Part shown: in pieces, positions 29,542 to 39,863 of the stretch | Position numbering within the stretch: the stretch's first letter is position 1 | How the letters are laid out: each line of letters opens with the position of its first letter | NCBI GenBank assembly: GCA_014610835.1 | Contig: QQXM01000031.1 | Location: 1-63,021, forward strand | Direction of reading: 5' to 3' | Length of the DNA stretch: 63,021 nt | Origin: Erysipelotrichaceae bacterium 7770_A6 | Lineage (GTDB): Bacteria; Bacillota_I; Bacilli_A; Erysipelotrichales; Erysipelotrichaceae | The notes under the pieces: generated by a model | Told to the model about the DNA's origin: nothing | Database searches by the model: none | The model's input: only the letters and a program-made list of their open reading frames with translations | Made by a program: the position numbers and the translations under genes

Positions 29542-29648
29542 AAATACACTTCCTCTATTCGTTTCCGTTCGTTATTTTATCATTTTTGGAATTAGATGTC
29601 TTGTAATGTGTTCACTTTCTTGTTCATATAACCTTCACATTGTTAAAA

Positions 29649-29677
29649 TTGCTTTTCAAGAGTGCTTGCAATATAAT
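29649..29677 (+). promoter_or_regulatory. Promoter of the foldase pair
   Basis: TTGCTT (29649-29654), a 17-bp spacer and a perfect TATAAT (29672-29677) lie 28 bp before the start codon. Confidence 0.65.
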
Positions 29678-29705
29678 TAATAAGCTTATTTTAATAGGAG
29701 GATTT

Positions 29706-30776
29706 ATGGGTAAATTCTTGAAAAAGAACTGGTTTGTAGTCCTTGTCGCTACATTGTTTATCGGTGTAGTTGGATATTACATCTATGATACAAACAAAGG
29801 AAAGCTCAAAGGCAAGAAAGCAAATGGAGAAGATGTTGTATATGAAATCAATGGCAATGATACAACTGCTTCTGCATTCTATGATGAATTATATTCATCT
29901 AACGGAACTAGCAGTGCTGTTGCTTTATTCAAACAGGCAGTTGCTGATGCAGACGTTAACACAACAAGTGAAATGAAAGACAATGCTAAAAAACAGGCAG
30001 AATCAATCAAATCCAATTACCAGTCTAACTATGGTTCCAGCTATGAATCATATTTAGCAAAAGACTTGGCTTCTACAGGTTTCTCTGATTTAGAAGAATA
30101 CTTGATTGAAGCTCAGAAGATCAATTCTATTACTGCTGATTATGCTAAGAAGAATTTTGATGACCTCAACATCAGACAGGTATCTTACATTCTGATCAAG
30201 TATGAAGATACTTCTAATCCAAGTGCTGAAACAACAGACGATGAAAAGAAGAGAATGGCTGCTGTTGATGAAGAATTAAAGAATGGTACTGATTTCGCTA
30301 CAGTTGCACAAGATCATTCTGAAGACTCTTCTACAGCAAGCAAAGGCGGTAATTTAGGTGTCATTGATAAAAATACAACTTCTATTGACTCAACATTCTT
30401 ATCTACTTCCCTTGCATTAAAAGAAGGTGAAGTATCAGACTGGGTAAGAAGTGATTCCTTTGGATACTTCAAAATCATGTGTACAGCTTCTACGCAGAAA
30501 ACACTAGAAAGCAATAACACAGACACTGATCCATATTTATCCCTTGTTCAGCAATACGATACAACTTTGGAAAATACAGCTATTTGGAAAAAGGCTCAGG
30601 AATTAGGTATTGATTTCAAAGGAAATGATGACATTGAAAAGGCAATCAAATCTGCATTCAATGTAACAGATGATACAGACAAGAAATCAACAGAAGCTAC
30701 AACTACTCCAGAAGCTACAACTACTCCAGAAACAACTGCAACTCCAGAATCAAGTGCAGAAAGTGAGGCTAACTAA
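29706..30776 (+). CDS. Membrane-anchored PrsA/PpiD-like peptidyl-prolyl isomerase
   Basis: Foldase for exported proteins, anchored by one N-terminal helix (about 8-28, FVVLVATLFIGVVGYYIY) rather than a lipid. A SurA-N-like helical region (about 55-155) is followed by a parvulin domain (about 158-265) with NIRQVSYILIKYED, DFATVAQDHSEDSSTASKGG and LALKEGEVSDWVRSDSFGYF, all expected PPIase features. The C-terminus is a Thr/Pro/Glu-rich spacer encoded by an 18-bp tandem repeat. The ATG at 29706 has AGGAGG 6 nt before it, so an earlier in-frame ATG is rejected. Together with the next gene it forms a two-gene unit. Confidence 0.88.
   Translation: MGKFLKKNWFVVLVATLFIGVVGYYIYDTNKGKLKGKKANGEDVVYEINGNDTTASAFYDELYSSNGTSSAVALFKQAVADADVNTTSEMKDNAKKQAESIKSNYQSNYGSSYESYLAKDLASTGFSDLEEYLIEAQKINSITADYAKKNFDDLNIRQVSYILIKYEDTSNPSAETTDDEKKRMAAVDEELKNGTDFATVAQDHSEDSSTASKGGNLGVIDKNTTSIDSTFLSTSLALKEGEVSDWVRSDSFGYFKIMCTASTQKTLESNNTDTDPYLSLVQQYDTTLENTAIWKKAQELGIDFKGNDDIEKAIKSAFNVTDDTDKKSTEATTTPEATTTPETTATPESSAESEAN
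30693..30746 (+). repeat. 18-bp tandem repeat in the foldase C-terminal coding region
   Basis: GAAGCTACAACTACTCCA occurs twice in perfect copies (30693-30710, 30711-30728) and a third time in degenerate form (30729-30746). It encodes EATTTP EATTTP ETTATP, a flexible spacer. The unit is a multiple of three, so copy changes would keep the frame. Confidence 0.85.
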
Positions 30777-30777
30777 C

Positions 30778-31695
30778 ATGAAAAACACAAGAAATCTATT
30801 ATTAGCATCCCTTCTATCTTTCTCTGTTTTAGCAGGATGTTCTGATGCACATGCAAAATTAAAGGATTCTTCCACAGCTCTATTCTCTGTAGGAAAGAAG
30901 ACAGTGACAAAAGGTGATCTGTATTCCAAGATGAATTCTACTTCTGGTGCATCTGTTGTTACAAATAACGCTACAAAGCAGATCAGTGCTGCTGAAATTG
31001 AAGTTACAGATGATATGAAAGAAAGTGCTGAAAAGACACTGAAATCATATAAGAGCATGTATGGTGATACATTTGCTTCTTATCTAGAAAATGTCAATAT
31101 GACTGAAGATGAATATCTAAACAACTTTTTGATTCCATCTTTACAGGCAGAACAGTTACCAAAGGCATATCTCGAACAAAACTGGGATAACGTTGCTAAA
31201 CTATATACACCACGTAAAGCTACGGTATTGGAATTCACAACAAGTGATGATGCCAAGGCTGCATTGAGTGAATTAAATGACGGTTCTAAGACTGCTGCAG
31301 AAGCAGCAAGTGGTCATAACTCTTCTTCTACTGGTGAAAGCAAGATCTACACAATTGAAGATACTGATCTTGATTCTATTGTTAGAAGCTGCATCAATTC
31401 AAATACTCCAGATGATGGATGGTCACAGGTTCCAGCAAGTGATGGAAGCAAGTTCTATGTTGTTAAGGTAGATGACAATAATCCTGATAACTTCAAGGAT
31501 GAATGTATTGCTTCTCTTGTATCTGTTTCTCAGATCAAGTCAGATTCAACAACATATTTCTTCAAGAAATATAACTTCCATGTTTATGACAAAGTCATCT
31601 ATGATGCTCTTGAAAAAGACTATCCTGATTACCTTGTACAAGATATGAAAGATACAAGTACATCATCTTCTAAAGATTCATCAACAAACGAATAA
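30778..31695 (+). CDS. PrsA-like foldase lipoprotein with degenerate PPIase region
   Basis: Surface lipoprotein of 305 residues. The lipobox LAGC (Cys19) ends a signal peptide (MKNTRNLLLASLLSFSVLAG). The helical region (about 30-135) resembles SurA-N and the preceding gene. In place of the parvulin domain is a short segment (ATVLEFTTSDDAKAALSELN to GSKFYVVKVDD) that keeps the strand order but lacks the QVSYI-type start and GGxLG loop, so isomerase activity is unlikely. The Ser/Thr-rich end may reach the wall. The start lies one base after the previous stop. Confidence 0.75.
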   Translation: MKNTRNLLLASLLSFSVLAGCSDAHAKLKDSSTALFSVGKKTVTKGDLYSKMNSTSGASVVTNNATKQISAAEIEVTDDMKESAEKTLKSYKSMYGDTFASYLENVNMTEDEYLNNFLIPSLQAEQLPKAYLEQNWDNVAKLYTPRKATVLEFTTSDDAKAALSELNDGSKTAAEAASGHNSSSTGESKIYTIEDTDLDSIVRSCINSNTPDDGWSQVPASDGSKFYVVKVDDNNPDNFKDECIASLVSVSQIKSDSTTYFFKKYNFHVYDKVIYDALEKDYPDYLVQDMKDTSTSSSKDSSTNE

Positions 31696-34769: not shown

Positions 34770-35702
34770 CTATTTGTGTTTATAAAACTGACGGTTTTCA
34801 AACTGAAACATACGAGATGTCCATGTTCCTGGTTTGATTGCATCTAATGCCATCTTTAAGGATGTTAATCTTGCATCCATGTTATCAATCAGATACAAAG
34901 CTTCTGCTTCAATGATCATTGGAGCTACAGGTGAACCATATTCCATCTTTCCATGATGTGAAAGAATCATATGATGCATCAATACTGTTTCTTCACGCTC
35001 CTGTACGCCAAGCTTTTCACTCACTTCACTCAGCCATGCATTGGCAAGTGAAATATGTCCTTCCAGCTTTCCTTCCAGTGTATATTCTGTTGTAACAGGA
35101 CCAGATAGTTCTGCTGTTTTACCTACATCATGAATCAATGCTGCAGATACAAGCAAATCACGATCTAATTGAGGATAATGCTTGCATAATTCATCCGCAA
35201 GTATTGCCATGGATAAGGAATGATCTGACAATCCACCCTTCCATCCATGATGGATCTTACTTGCGGCAGGAAATGTAAAGAACTTGTCTCCAACATAGGA
35301 CAACATGCCAATGACAAGTTTTCTATAGACATCATTTTGAATGGAATCAATCAATGACTGTGTTAAACTTCTTCTTTCAACTTCAGAATGATCTGAAGAA
35401 ATGACAAAATCTTCTAGATTATATTCATCTTCACTGATTTCTTCTACGTGATTCATACGTAACTGTAATTTATCTTTATAAAGCAACACTTCAAAACTGA
35501 ATTTCAAAATCTTTCCAGCTTGTATAAGTGCCTGTTCATTTTCTTTTACATCCCAGAATTTTCCATCAATTGTTCCTGTTTTATCTTGTAATGTTAAAGA
35601 TAAATATGGGGAACCTTTTGATGTTGTACCATTCTTGACATCTTTTACAAGCAATGGCTGCTGTAACTTCATATGTTCTTCAAATTCATTGATTTTGACC
35701 AT
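34770..35702 (-). CDS. yhaM: YhaM-type 3'-5' exoribonuclease (OB fold and HD domain)
   Basis: Metal-dependent 3'-5' exonuclease that trims RNA 3' ends in Bacillota. An N-terminal OB fold (about 10-90: KGSPYLSLTLQDKTGTIDGKFW) precedes an HD domain (about 150-280) with HHGWKGGLSDHSLSM, ALIHDVGKTAEL and MHHMILSHHGKMEYGSP, all metal-site motifs. The ATG at 35702 has GGAG 8 nt upstream; a GTG at 35711 overlaps the preceding gene. It ends at 310 residues, the usual length. Confidence 0.92.
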   Translation of the reverse strand: MVKINEFEEHMKLQQPLLVKDVKNGTTSKGSPYLSLTLQDKTGTIDGKFWDVKENEQALIQAGKILKFSFEVLLYKDKLQLRMNHVEEISEDEYNLEDFVISSDHSEVERRSLTQSLIDSIQNDVYRKLVIGMLSYVGDKFFTFPAASKIHHGWKGGLSDHSLSMAILADELCKHYPQLDRDLLVSAALIHDVGKTAELSGPVTTEYTLEGKLEGHISLANAWLSEVSEKLGVQEREETVLMHHMILSHHGKMEYGSPVAPMIIEAEALYLIDNMDARLTSLKMALDAIKPGTWTSRMFQFENRQFYKHK

Positions 35703-35704
35703 TC

Positions 35705-37687
35705 TTACCACTCCATTTCATCTATGACTACATATATATCTTCTATTGCATATCCTTGTGCCATGCAATAACGGAATACGCGATTTTTCAATTCTGTACC
35801 CTGATATTTCTTTTCATATCTCTTTTTTGCTTTCACACAGCATTTAGATAGATTATCAAGTTCTTTATTTTCAATTCTTGTATAATCCATTTTTTCAGAT
35901 ACACTTCTAGCAATCTGCGATGAATATCCTTTCATCACTAAATGATTATATACGTAATTCTTACTTTTTTTAACAGAATCATTCTTGCAGGAATTCAATA
36001 ATTTTTCAGCATATGCAATCGCATTCTCTTCTTCATCGTCTTTTCTTGCGTTTAATGTATCTACGATCATTTCATATGGAATGCCTTTTTTTACTAGTGT
36101 TTTAATGATTTTGTCATTTCCATTAAACGCCGCTTTTAAAGAAGATATCTGATCTTCACAATATCTTGCGTCATTGATGTAGCCTTTATTTTCCAGCTTT
36201 TCAATGATGCGATTGATCATATAGATATCACATTCTGTATTTTGTGTCAGCCAGTCATAAATTTCTTTTCTGCTGCGATCTTTATAGGCAAGTTTTCTTA
36301 AACAGCTCTGATACGCAAGTGCACCACATTGACGTTCTACTAAATCATCTACCTGCTTCTTTGTCAGTAATCCATTCTTGCGCATTCCCAGGTTGTAGTA
36401 ATCATCTAAAGATACCTGGATTCTTCTTTCATCGTGTTTATCTGAAATTAAATATAGCTGTACAATGCTTTCTTTCACTTGAACATCCACGATTGTATAT
36501 TGGTTGTGATACTGCTTGATTGTATTTGTATACACATCCATGACTCTTTCATAGAAAGTTTCAGAAGAATATGGCTGCACACACGCAATACAGTTCTTCT
36601 GCATCTGTTCATATTCTTCTTTTGTTAAATGCATAAAACGTTCAATATATTCTACAAGATCGTTTTCATCCTTAAAAAACCATCCTGTCTTATCTGGAAG
36701 TAATAAATCATCCAGTACTTCATCATATCGTGCAAATAAAGGCAAAGAAGACGCAAGAGCTTCAATAAATGTCATTCCCTGTGTTTCAGATAAGGAAGCT
36801 GAAATAAATGCATCTGCACAATGATATAAAGCTGGGATATCTTCTCTGTTTTTCGCACCTGTCATCACACAGCTGTCTTCAATACCAAATTCCTTGATCA
36901 TTGCAGATAAACGATCAAAATCTGGCCCGTCACCAACAATCATCATTTTAATATTGATCCCTTTTTGAATTGTATTCGCAATTCCTTTTACAACAATATC
37001 CAATGCTTTCTCTTCCGCAAGTCTACCAACATATATGATAATTTTATCTTCATCTGTAAAACCATACTGTTCACGAAGTGCATGACGGCTAGATGGATCA
37101 GCATTTTCACTGGAAAACTTATCCAGTTCCAGCCCCGTTGGAATGACTTTGATTTCTCTTCTGACATGATAGCTTTCAAGCATTTCTTTTGTCTTCATAC
37201 TTGGGGCAATCACTTCAATAGAAGAATCTCCATAAAGACGAGAAAGTTTCGCAACACCAACTTTTGCAATTTCATCAACTTTACGAGAATTAATGAAGTT
37301 AACATAATGTGTATAGTCTTCATATGTCGTATGATACGTAGATACAAGTGGAATCTGCAACTGCTTTGCACAGATTCTCGCAAATAAACCAACACCGAAT
37401 TCTGTCTGTGCATGAATCACATCCAGATTCAACTTTCTAATTTCTTCCAGTGCGGAAACATGAAAAGGAGATGTCATAACATATCCATATAAAAACTTGA
37501 GCTGAACACCTGCAAGTCTTAATACTTTATGATCATCATCCCATTTGTGTTTTCCACTGCCTTTATATGTTGTCACAACAACGACATCATGTCCATGCTT
37601 TTCAAGCTCATTTCTTAAGATGGAAGTAGAAGCGGCAACGCCATTGATCTGTGGTGGATATGTATCTGTAAATAACGCAATACGCAT
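35705..37687 (-). CDS. GT4 glycosyltransferase fused to full-length RecX
   Basis: A single 660-residue reading frame with two complete proteins. Residues 1-396 are a GT-B, GT4-family glycosyltransferase (MRIALFTDTYPPQINGVAAS, IIYVGRLAEEKALDIVV, SETQGMTFIEALASSLP), close to diacylglycerol glucosyltransferases. Residues 397-660 look like a whole RecX, including the N-terminal beta part (YTIVDVQVKESIVQLYLI), LRKLAYKDRSRKEIYDWL, KGYINDARYCEDQI and KTLVKKGIPYEMI; RecX binds RecA filaments and inhibits them. The join, near 36500, shows no stop or frame change. It starts one base into the flippase-like gene's stop and ends next to yhaM. Glucolipid synthesis fits the neighbours; the RecX part does not. 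Confidence 0.88.
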   Translation of the reverse strand: MRIALFTDTYPPQINGVAASTSILRNELEKHGHDVVVVTTYKGSGKHKWDDDHKVLRLAGVQLKFLYGYVMTSPFHVSALEEIRKLNLDVIHAQTEFGVGLFARICAKQLQIPLVSTYHTTYEDYTHYVNFINSRKVDEIAKVGVAKLSRLYGDSSIEVIAPSMKTKEMLESYHVRREIKVIPTGLELDKFSSENADPSSRHALREQYGFTDEDKIIIYVGRLAEEKALDIVVKGIANTIQKGINIKMMIVGDGPDFDRLSAMIKEFGIEDSCVMTGAKNREDIPALYHCADAFISASLSETQGMTFIEALASSLPLFARYDEVLDDLLLPDKTGWFFKDENDLVEYIERFMHLTKEEYEQMQKNCIACVQPYSSETFYERVMDVYTNTIKQYHNQYTIVDVQVKESIVQLYLISDKHDERRIQVSLDDYYNLGMRKNGLLTKKQVDDLVERQCGALAYQSCLRKLAYKDRSRKEIYDWLTQNTECDIYMINRIIEKLENKGYINDARYCEDQISSLKAAFNGNDKIIKTLVKKGIPYEMIVDTLNARKDDEEENAIAYAEKLLNSCKNDSVKKSKNYVYNHLVMKGYSSQIARSVSEKMDYTRIENKELDNLSKCCVKAKKRYEKKYQGTELKNRVFRYCMAQGYAIEDIYVVIDEMEW

Positions 37688-38793
37688 TATTCATCACCTT
37701 CTTTCTCATACTCTTCTAGTGCCTGTTTTGTATAGGTCACTGGCACACCTTTTGCAAGCGGAATGTCTTTTCTTGTTCTAGCATACAAGAAGACAAAACT
37801 GCCGATAATCAATACCTGATAAAACGTAATCATTCTCCATAGAAGCATGATTGATGCAGATTGTGTCTTTGTAAAAATTGTTGAAAACATCAAAATGAAA
37901 GTTGCTTCCGTTCCTCCAGAAGAACCAGGCATTGGTAAAAAAGCATTGACCATCGCTACAAACGAAGACAAAGCAACCATATTAAAGTACATGTCCATTG
38001 TAACTGGAATTTTCAAGACACATGCACAAAGGAAAGGAACACTGTAATAAATCAATAATCTGACAAGATCTTCCACTGCTAAAAATGCAATCAGTTTTTT
38101 ATGCGTTCGTAATACAACAATTTCTTTTGAAAACTGTTCTAATTGCGTGTTCAATTGTGCAAGTGTTTTTTCCTTATCTTTTAAAATATGTAATTTACAT
38201 CCAATCTCTATTCCAGAAGTCGTCAGCCATTGGTAGAATCTTGGAGAAATTGCCAATATCCATAAAAACACTATAATCGCAGCACCTACTAAAAATCCCG
38301 CAATAACAATCAAAAAATATTGTGAATAATTGGAATAGAAATATGGAAATTTCACTAAAATCAGAAATAGTACAAAAGAACACATTGTCGTCTGGTACAC
38401 AATAAAATCAAGCCATAATACACCAATTGAATTACTGATGGGAATTCCCTGTTTTCGAAAGATATACCCTTGTGCTACCTGACCACCAGAAGCACCTGGT
38501 GTGATATTATTGAACAATCCCGCAACATAGGAGTTCACAAATCCTTGTTTATATGTGTAATGGGGATGCGTTAATTTGCATTCTTCTGCTAGACCAACCC
38601 CCAAAAGAAAACGTTCAAAAACCATCAATAAAACAATCAATATCAATCCTGTAATATTGACAGATTTCAATGTATCTAATACTTTTCCACCATCATCTTT
38701 CAACGTAAAAAACAATACACCACCAGCTAAGGCAAATATCAAAAAAATATTAAATATTGTATTACTAAGCAAGCTTTTGATCTTTTTCCACAT
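37687..38793 (-). CDS. Flippase-like membrane protein (lysylphosphatidylglycerol synthase TM family)
   Basis: Integral membrane protein of 368 residues with about eight helices, of the UPF0104/LPG_synthase_TM family. Visible are FNNITPGASGGQVAQGYIF (about 95-113) and NAFLPMPGSSGGTEATFILM (about 285-305), the two glycine-rich conserved loops. It lacks the C-terminal synthetase domain of MprF, so it is not an aminoacyl-lipid synthase. Between two glycolipid glycosyltransferases, a role in moving or handling glycolipids is a reasonable inference. A -10 box ends 6 nt before the ATG. Confidence 0.8.
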   Translation of the reverse strand: MWKKIKSLLSNTIFNIFLIFALAGGVLFFTLKDDGGKVLDTLKSVNITGLILIVLLMVFERFLLGVGLAEECKLTHPHYTYKQGFVNSYVAGLFNNITPGASGGQVAQGYIFRKQGIPISNSIGVLWLDFIVYQTTMCSFVLFLILVKFPYFYSNYSQYFLIVIAGFLVGAAIIVFLWILAISPRFYQWLTTSGIEIGCKLHILKDKEKTLAQLNTQLEQFSKEIVVLRTHKKLIAFLAVEDLVRLLIYYSVPFLCACVLKIPVTMDMYFNMVALSSFVAMVNAFLPMPGSSGGTEATFILMFSTIFTKTQSASIMLLWRMITFYQVLIIGSFVFLYARTRKDIPLAKGVPVTYTKQALEEYEKEGDE

Positions 38794-38840: not shown

Positions 38841-39863
38841 CTACTTCATCATATCTTCATGATTCATTACAAATTCATAAACTTCTTTTAACTGTTGTCC
38901 AACAGATTCAATTGATCTTTCTTCTGCAGTCTGATAGCCTGCATTTGTTAGATCCTTCAAATCTCTTTCTACAACACCACGAATTTTTCCAACAAATTCA
39001 TCATTATTGCTACCCATATAACAATTCTTTCCATCTTGCAGCCATGGATGAAATGCACCAATGTCTCTAACAACCGTTGGACATTTACCAGCTAGAGCTT
39101 CTAATACCACAATTCCTTCTGTTTCTTCATAGCTTGGGAAAAAGAAACAGTCTGCATCACTATATGCGCCTTCAATAATGCCGCCTTTCACGTATCCTGG
39201 GAAAATCAGATTTGGAATTTCATTGTTATCTACAAGATCACTCATTTCCTTAGGAATGATCAAACGACTTGTATCACCAAACCAGATGAATTTATAGTCA
39301 GGAAGTCTTTTTGCAACCTCTACAAAATCTGGCAGTCCTTTTCTTTGAAATAACAAGCCAACACCAATCACAACCTTATCATTTGGCTTTAAAGAAAAGT
39401 ATTTACGGAATGCTTCAATCTTATCAGGATTTCTTTGATATCGCTTTAAATCAATCCCATTGCTCACCGCAAAAATAGGAAGCTGAATACCATACCCTTC
39501 TAATATCTTTTTGGAATACGGTGTTGGCGTAATCAAAGCATCTGCCTGTGTATATAAATGCATCAGCCATTTTTTTACTGCTGGTGAAATCGTATTGGAC
39601 AACGTAAAACTGTTTCTGAAGTCTTCTTCTGTAGAATGTGCATGATAAATGACTTTCTTGCCATGTTCTCTTGCATTTTTTACGATTGCTTCAGAATTCA
39701 TATAGTATGTATTGATATGTAGAATGTCATAATCAGGACACCAAGGGTCCGTTGTAAATTCAATTCCAGCCGATTCTAAAGCTCTTTGTTGATGCTTAAA
39801 AGCTCTACCAATACCAGATTTAGAAATTACACTTTCTCCTTCAAAATATAAAAGTATTTTCAT
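38841..39863 (-). CDS. GT4 glycosyltransferase, CpoA-like glycolipid synthase
   Basis: GT-B glycosyltransferase of 340 residues resembling CpoA-type enzymes that add a second sugar to monoglucosyldiacylglycerol. Motifs: SGIGRAFKHQQRAL near the N-terminus, YHAHSTEEDFRNSF, VSNGIDLKRYQ, GVGLLFQRKGLPDFVEVA and the EX7E region SYEETEGIVVLEALAGKCP. It has no membrane helix but would bind the inner membrane surface. The GT4 part of the RecX fusion could make the first glycolipid and this enzyme the second. No Shine-Dalgarno sequence precedes the ATG. Confidence 0.82.
   Translation of the reverse strand: MKILLYFEGESVISKSGIGRAFKHQQRALESAGIEFTTDPWCPDYDILHINTYYMNSEAIVKNAREHGKKVIYHAHSTEEDFRNSFTLSNTISPAVKKWLMHLYTQADALITPTPYSKKILEGYGIQLPIFAVSNGIDLKRYQRNPDKIEAFRKYFSLKPNDKVVIGVGLLFQRKGLPDFVEVAKRLPDYKFIWFGDTSRLIIPKEMSDLVDNNEIPNLIFPGYVKGGIIEGAYSDADCFFFPSYEETEGIVVLEALAGKCPTVVRDIGAFHPWLQDGKNCYMGSNNDEFVGKIRGVVERDLKDLTNAGYQTAEERSIESVGQQLKEVYEFVMNHEDMMK

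Follow-up and report, generated by a model that had tools for sequence, protein, structure and literature searches.

What does it mean that a glycosyltransferase resembling enzymes of lipid synthesis and a RecX protein are encoded by one open reading frame: an error, two proteins made from one frame, or a single bifunctional protein? The question was addressed in the window (the whole stretch of 63,021 nucleotides analyzed here) and in genomes of the same order, Erysipelotrichales, and of the same class; families, genomes and loci carry f, G and L numbers. According to the open reading frame list of the window and its translation, the 660-amino-acid frame starts with ATG and contains no internal stop codon. 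The one-frame claim of the sequence-only reading was thus borne out, with the addition of the strand (minus), which had been left unstated. The features of the gene are as follows.

35705..37687, minus strand: fusion gene GT4 glycosyltransferase::RecX, 660 amino acids, stop codon at 35705-35707 (domain matches, same frame in relatives)
36506..37687, minus strand: GT4 domain, residues 1-394 (Pfam and NCBIfam matches, fold comparison)
35708..36505, minus strand: RecX domain, residues 395-660, comprising the N-terminal beta part and the helical repeats (NCBIfam and fold matches)
36473..36565, minus strand: joint, residues 375-405 (AlphaFold2 model, Shine-Dalgarno start test)

The AlphaFold2 model of the full chain had a mean pLDDT of 90.1 and a pTM of 0.69. 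At the joint, the final helix of the glycosyltransferase (residues 375-394) is followed by the first RecX strand (residues 397-405), and a disordered linker is absent; the boundary previously placed at 396/397 agrees with this helix end at 394 and strand start at 397. Because the two domains form one chain, they are made in equal amounts, and in this sense the amount of RecX is tied to that of the glycosyltransferase, as had been proposed.

The GT4 half matched Glycos_transf_1 (E 1.3e-32, 113.2 bits; cut-off 26.4) and Glyco_transf_4 (E 1.6e-24, 87.2 bits; cut-off 28.5) of Pfam. The best of 47 NCBIfam models was MGlcDAGSynMgs (E 5.9e-80, 269.5 bits), and the score fell short of the equivalog cut-off of 400 bits. 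Like the alpha-monoglucosyldiacylglycerol synthase Mgs (GT4, NF049988), the window protein matches nearly the whole model (residues 1-394 against positions 1-392 of 398), and its operon context includes a flippase and a GT4 enzyme of the IagA/BgsA family; unlike Mgs, it carries a C-terminal RecX and reaches only 269.5 of 400 bits. Judging from these matches, the GT4 half would work like Mgs, and membership of Mgs is not claimed. E301 and E309, which form the EX7E catalytic motif of GT4, were invariant across 77 fused sequences. The half has the two-lobed GT4 fold, with MshA and BshA as the nearest structures (MshA 3c4q: Z 37.3, 371 residues aligned, 3.7 Å). Enzymes of GT4 that glycosylate lipids bind to the surface of the membrane. 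Most likely, the GT4 half would add the first glucose onto diacylglycerol for the glycolipid anchor of lipoteichoic acid.

Residues 398-658 matched the NCBIfam RecX model PRK14135 at positions 3-263 of 267 (E 2.5e-35, 122.4 bits), which supports the earlier statement that the RecX is whole, with its N-terminal beta part. RecX of Bacillus subtilis is given as 264 residues in a passage of PMC3527212. The comparison of the whole model with known folds returned matches of the glycosyltransferase half only, and the RecX half was therefore folded separately; its six best fold matches in the PDB were all RecX, with 3d5l at the top (E 3.2e-10), and the match to 3e3v had an E value of 1.6e-26. The window domain resembles Firmicutes-type RecX (NF010733) in its whole length, beta part included, and in the fold of 3d5l and 3e3v, whereas it differs in being fused behind a glycosyltransferase and in reaching 122 of the 240 bits of the equivalog cut-off. 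Two separate recX genes that were scored, from families f8 and f19, also fell below this value (145 and 93 bits); therefore, the cut-off is strict for the class. On these scores, the half is classed with the RecX Pfam families as a RecX-like domain, outside the NCBIfam equivalog. The two families are clear, yet the substrate and the exact role are unproven, since both halves score below their equivalog cut-offs.

Two Pfam repeats of RecX exceeded the cut-off of 26 (RecX_HTH3, 38.0 bits; RecX_HTH1, 31.3 bits), and the second three-helix repeat, RecX_HTH2, was unrecognized by Pfam in the window protein. As a search probe RecX_HTH2 misses the fusion, and a RecX-half profile took its place. Among fused sequences, the second repeat was recognized in 23 of 36; the numbers were 12 of 21 for unfused sequences of the order and 18 of 23 for those from outside it. 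It was unrecognized in 13 fused and 9 unfused order sequences. Decay of RecX peculiar to the fusion was rejected, as the second repeat is about equally frequent in unfused RecX of the order. Searching the window genome (G000) with the RecX-half profile gave a single RecX match, the fused one, and another search returned the fusion and the neighboring glycosyltransferase only. The fused copy is therefore the sole RecX detected in this genome, which has one copy of the RecA gene. Most likely, the RecX half would function as RecX of Firmicutes ordinarily does and limit RecA filaments.

The genes surrounding the fusion gene are as follows.

37687..38793, minus strand: upstream gene, flippase-like membrane protein (LPG_synthase_TM; TIGR00374, 63.6 bits, cut-off 43.2)
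38841..39863, minus strand: GT4 enzyme of the IagA/BgsA family (NF053513, 505.7 bits, passing the cut-off of 460)
34770..35711, minus strand: downstream gene, YhaM-like 3'-5' exoribonuclease with an HD domain (YhaM the best NCBIfam model, E 8.4e-88, below cut-off)

The stop codon of the flippase-like gene overlaps the ATG of the fusion gene. For the YhaM-like gene, the ATG at 35702 is a likelier start than that of the listed frame. The model NF053513 is named for an enzyme of the lipoteichoic-acid glycolipid anchor, and the family names suggest that the neighborhood is a glycolipid operon serving this anchor. What is retained of the sequence-only reading of the pair is a single chain made up of a GT4 enzyme like those acting on lipids and a complete RecX; its gene lies within such an operon. 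Elsewhere in the window, two plus-strand frames (29640-30776 and 30670-31695) form a tandem pair that we take to resemble PrsA. As listed, these frames overlap by 107 nucleotides in a Thr/Pro-rich repeat tail, and the second gene probably begins later, at its lipoprotein signal.

The architecture, for which a search of related genomes had been suggested, recurs widely. A frame of 600 amino acids or longer with a RecX match was found in at least 189 of 315 genomes of the order and in at least 71 of its 79 genera, with 93 genomes not checked singly. The number 189 comprises 143 genomes with the fusion in a listed frame, 45 of 78 genomes examined singly, and G089; the remainder of the 78 had a shorter frame (28 genomes) or no RecX match (5 genomes). 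In the 45 genomes, the glycosyltransferase is implied by the frame length and the full-protein match, and both profiles were read directly in one frame at all 41 fused loci chosen for this. In the fully listed sample, 34 of 35 order genomes with RecX had such a frame, versus none of 80 RecX-bearing genomes from elsewhere in the class. The longest RecX frame outside the order was 317 amino acids in these 80 and 349 among the matches listed in the larger set; this comparison concerns genomes of the same class and says nothing on Bacillales or Lactobacillales. The fused proteins share 34-58% identity with the window protein. Named holders are Bulleidia extructa, Lactimicrobium massiliense, Longicatena caecimuris, Traorella massiliensis, Dielma fastidiosa, Amedibacillus dolichus, Merdibacter massiliensis, Erysipelothrix tonsillarum, Erysipelothrix inopinata, Faecalicoccus pleomorphus and an uncultured Thomasclavelia. 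A single frame was present in 75 of 80 named records, isolates included; the five exceptions were a frame with a stop (L062), a separate gene pair (L103) and cuts at contig ends (L065, L100 and L109). L128 ends within RecX. The same single frame in these records rules out chance or an assembly error, and the fusion is a real and old architecture in this order of gut bacteria.

In order to examine whether the frame yields one protein or two, translation starts were compared in 83 fused genes (five of 88 loci, L062, L065, L100, L103 and L109, were left out). A Shine-Dalgarno signal of −6 kcal/mol or lower preceded 95% of the true starts, 9% of 253 in-frame starts at the joint and 10% of 2742 located elsewhere inside the genes. 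The best candidate at the joint of the window gene reached −5.1 kcal/mol. An internal translation start at the joint was rejected, there being no enrichment of the signal at this site, and no signal for separate synthesis of RecX was found at the joint, the window gene included. The full-length protein is the expected product.

Outside the order, two families of the class (f8 and f19) have the same operon order, flippase-GT4-recX-yhaM, with separate genes. The gene directly upstream of recX was surveyed at 60 stand-alone recX loci of the class, taken from the better-scoring of 192 outside genomes among the matches listed. It encoded a window-like GT4 in 15 loci (f8 and f19), a lipid glycosyltransferase of family GT28 in 11 (f9, f13 and f18), YitT, S41 or PrfB in 19, a flippase in 4 and a weakly Mgs-like glycosyltransferase in 1, and was unlabeled in 10. 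The f8/f19 pairs resemble the fusion in operon order and domains, and differ in giving two proteins, with recX in the +1 frame (15 of 15) and a short overlap. By Shine-Dalgarno strength, the best recX start lies 20 nucleotides inside the glycosyltransferase gene in 12 of the 15 pairs and 26 nucleotides inside in two (L203 and L211), so that a start 20-26 nucleotides inside is available by best score in 14; in L178, the ATG at −20 ranks second, behind a start at +67. Loss of one base in such an overlap would give the fusion. Because the f8/f19 pairs overlap, have recX in the +1 frame and lie in the same operon, the fusion of the order is most simply explained as the joining, by a small frame-changing indel, of two overlapping and probably translationally coupled operon genes. 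Relatives with separate glycosyltransferase and recX genes, which had been named beforehand as one part of a case against the fusion, do exist, but they point to its origin rather than to an error.

In families f9, f13 and f18, the gene directly upstream of recX was GT28 MGDG_synth in 11 of 11 loci. These loci (L153, L154, L155, L157, L176, L180, L182, L184, L185, L188 and L190), of the MGDG-synthase/UgtP type, resemble the fusion in having a lipid glycosyltransferase directly upstream of recX; on the other hand, the enzyme family is unrelated to GT4 and the genes are unfused.

The concatenated tree joined all sequences of the order; it contains one outgroup clade, so it says little on the two families of the order, f1 and f2, relative to each other. 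RecX trees left f2 unplaced. In the AU test, f1 and f2 together gave p 0.469 and f2 with the f8/f19 pairs p 0.169 (L103, a copy of L117, was omitted from the trees). A single origin fits the fact that f1 and f2 belong to one order, though it is unproven; grouping the two is neither rejected nor shown by the AU test.

Within the order, the fusion has also come apart. Separate glycosyltransferase and RecX frames, overlapping or abutting, were found at five sampled loci (L116, L117, L118, L132 and L138); on the tree, these loci occupy three separate positions within the fused group. G136 has a further split, its RecX match being without the N-terminal part, and in G272 of f2 the fusion frame is in pieces. 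RecX without an adjoining glycosyltransferase was found at 16 sampled loci; a decayed glycosyltransferase stretch is still in frame with RecX in L115 and G223. When six genomes having RecX without the glycosyltransferase were searched whole, an enzyme of this type was found elsewhere in two, G073 and G220 (one stop in the match). G167 has kept the glycosyltransferase, and RecX was undetected. Gene content indicates that RecX is kept for its own sake in the order, because it persists where the glycosyltransferase has been lost or moved. Of 30 loci examined in the order, 29 have YhaM following RecX, and yhaM also lies downstream of recX in 21 of 21 f8/f19 loci. In 13 close pairs, dN/dS was 0.026-0.093 for the glycosyltransferase and 0.011-0.127 for RecX (12 pairs with a value), as estimated by a simple method with many dS values saturated. 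Both halves are thus under purifying selection, and neither is a passive tail, within the precision that saturation allows.

Some further arrangements were observed. In G073, whose RecX locus has lost its glycosyltransferase, the frame at L221:850-2688 (minus strand) encodes an Mgs-like GT4 that continues at its C-terminus into a VTT membrane domain (Pfam), a further case of a lipid-type glycosyltransferase in a fusion. On one contig of G141, two RecX matches that have the same score and the same frame length lie 114 kb from each other (C1:2816121-2816903 and 2929752-2930534), owing to duplication either of the gene or in the assembly. In G380, G365, G398 and G542 (genus g120, family f8), each RecX match contains one TAG, possibly a recoded codon or else a stop lying just beyond the gene that the match has run past.

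We consider it likely that the gene encodes a genuine bifunctional protein that arose from joined overlapping operon genes, the glycosyltransferase adding the first glucose and RecX limiting RecA filaments. The most likely reading is also the plainest, namely that one chain combines two ordinary activities. The GT4 half would glucosylate diacylglycerol for the lipoteichoic-acid anchor, and the RecX half would restrain RecA as the only RecX detected in the cell. A neutral fusion might split more often, and persistence in at least 71 of 79 genera counts against this plain reading. Some benefit of the join is favored because it has been retained for long and because recX repeatedly follows a lipid glycosyltransferase gene from one or the other of two unrelated families. 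A need for the link is disfavored because of the repeated splitting and loss. The join would give at most a mild benefit, namely a fixed stoichiometry and some RecX near the membrane.

It is rather unlikely that the halves are functionally coupled along the lines suggested by the sequence-only reading, i.e. that the membrane-associated glycosyltransferase holds RecX at the membrane, or that glycolipid synthesis sets RecX activity and links envelope growth to the control of RecA. Retention across deep divergence, the occurrence of recX behind the unrelated GT28, so that two enzyme families catalyzing a similar step are involved, and the absence of a disordered linker argue for such coupling. 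Against it stand the three independent splits into separate genes, the many genomes having RecX without the glycosyltransferase and the converse case of G167, the position of recX after YitT, S41 or PrfB in 19 of 60 class loci, and the pTM of 0.69, which leaves a fixed arrangement of the domains unsure. A broader proposal is that RecX and lipid glycosyltransferases work as one functional unit in the class, with recX placed behind either of two unrelated enzymes of this sort, and that the link became covalent in the order; the state of the membrane or of sugars would then position or gate the cell's sole RecA inhibitor of this kind. This proposal is unlikely.

The RecX half could instead have been put to a new use, such as that of a tail through which the glycosyltransferase binds protein or RNA, with its action on RecA lost. 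The unrecognized second repeat of the window protein would suit this idea, but such loss is not peculiar to the fusion, stand-alone RecX is retained where the glycosyltransferase is gone, and no other RecX was found in a genome that has RecA; we regard re-use as very doubtful. An assembly or sequencing error, or two separate proteins from one frame, might be suspected from the order genomes with two genes and from the broken frame of G272, but is highly improbable in view of the single frame in the named records, the lack of a start-site signal at the joint and the lack of a linker to invite cleavage.

No description of a glycosyltransferase-RecX fusion was found in the portions of the open literature consulted, subscription journals and database domain lists lying outside this scope; the RecX passages of PMC8865564 and PMC11676981 are unrelated to such a fusion. 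The architecture is apparently undescribed in print. With the genuine bifunctional protein as the preferred reading, the locus is a clean case in which two proteins without shared chemistry have merged and have stayed merged through most of an order, with both the precursor step (overlapping genes) and the aftermath (splits and loss of one half) visible in living genomes. It also carries a warning for annotation, as a protein named glycosyltransferase in this order is also the RecX of its genome. The fusion lets one ask whether an unrelated membrane enzyme alters the place and working of RecX.
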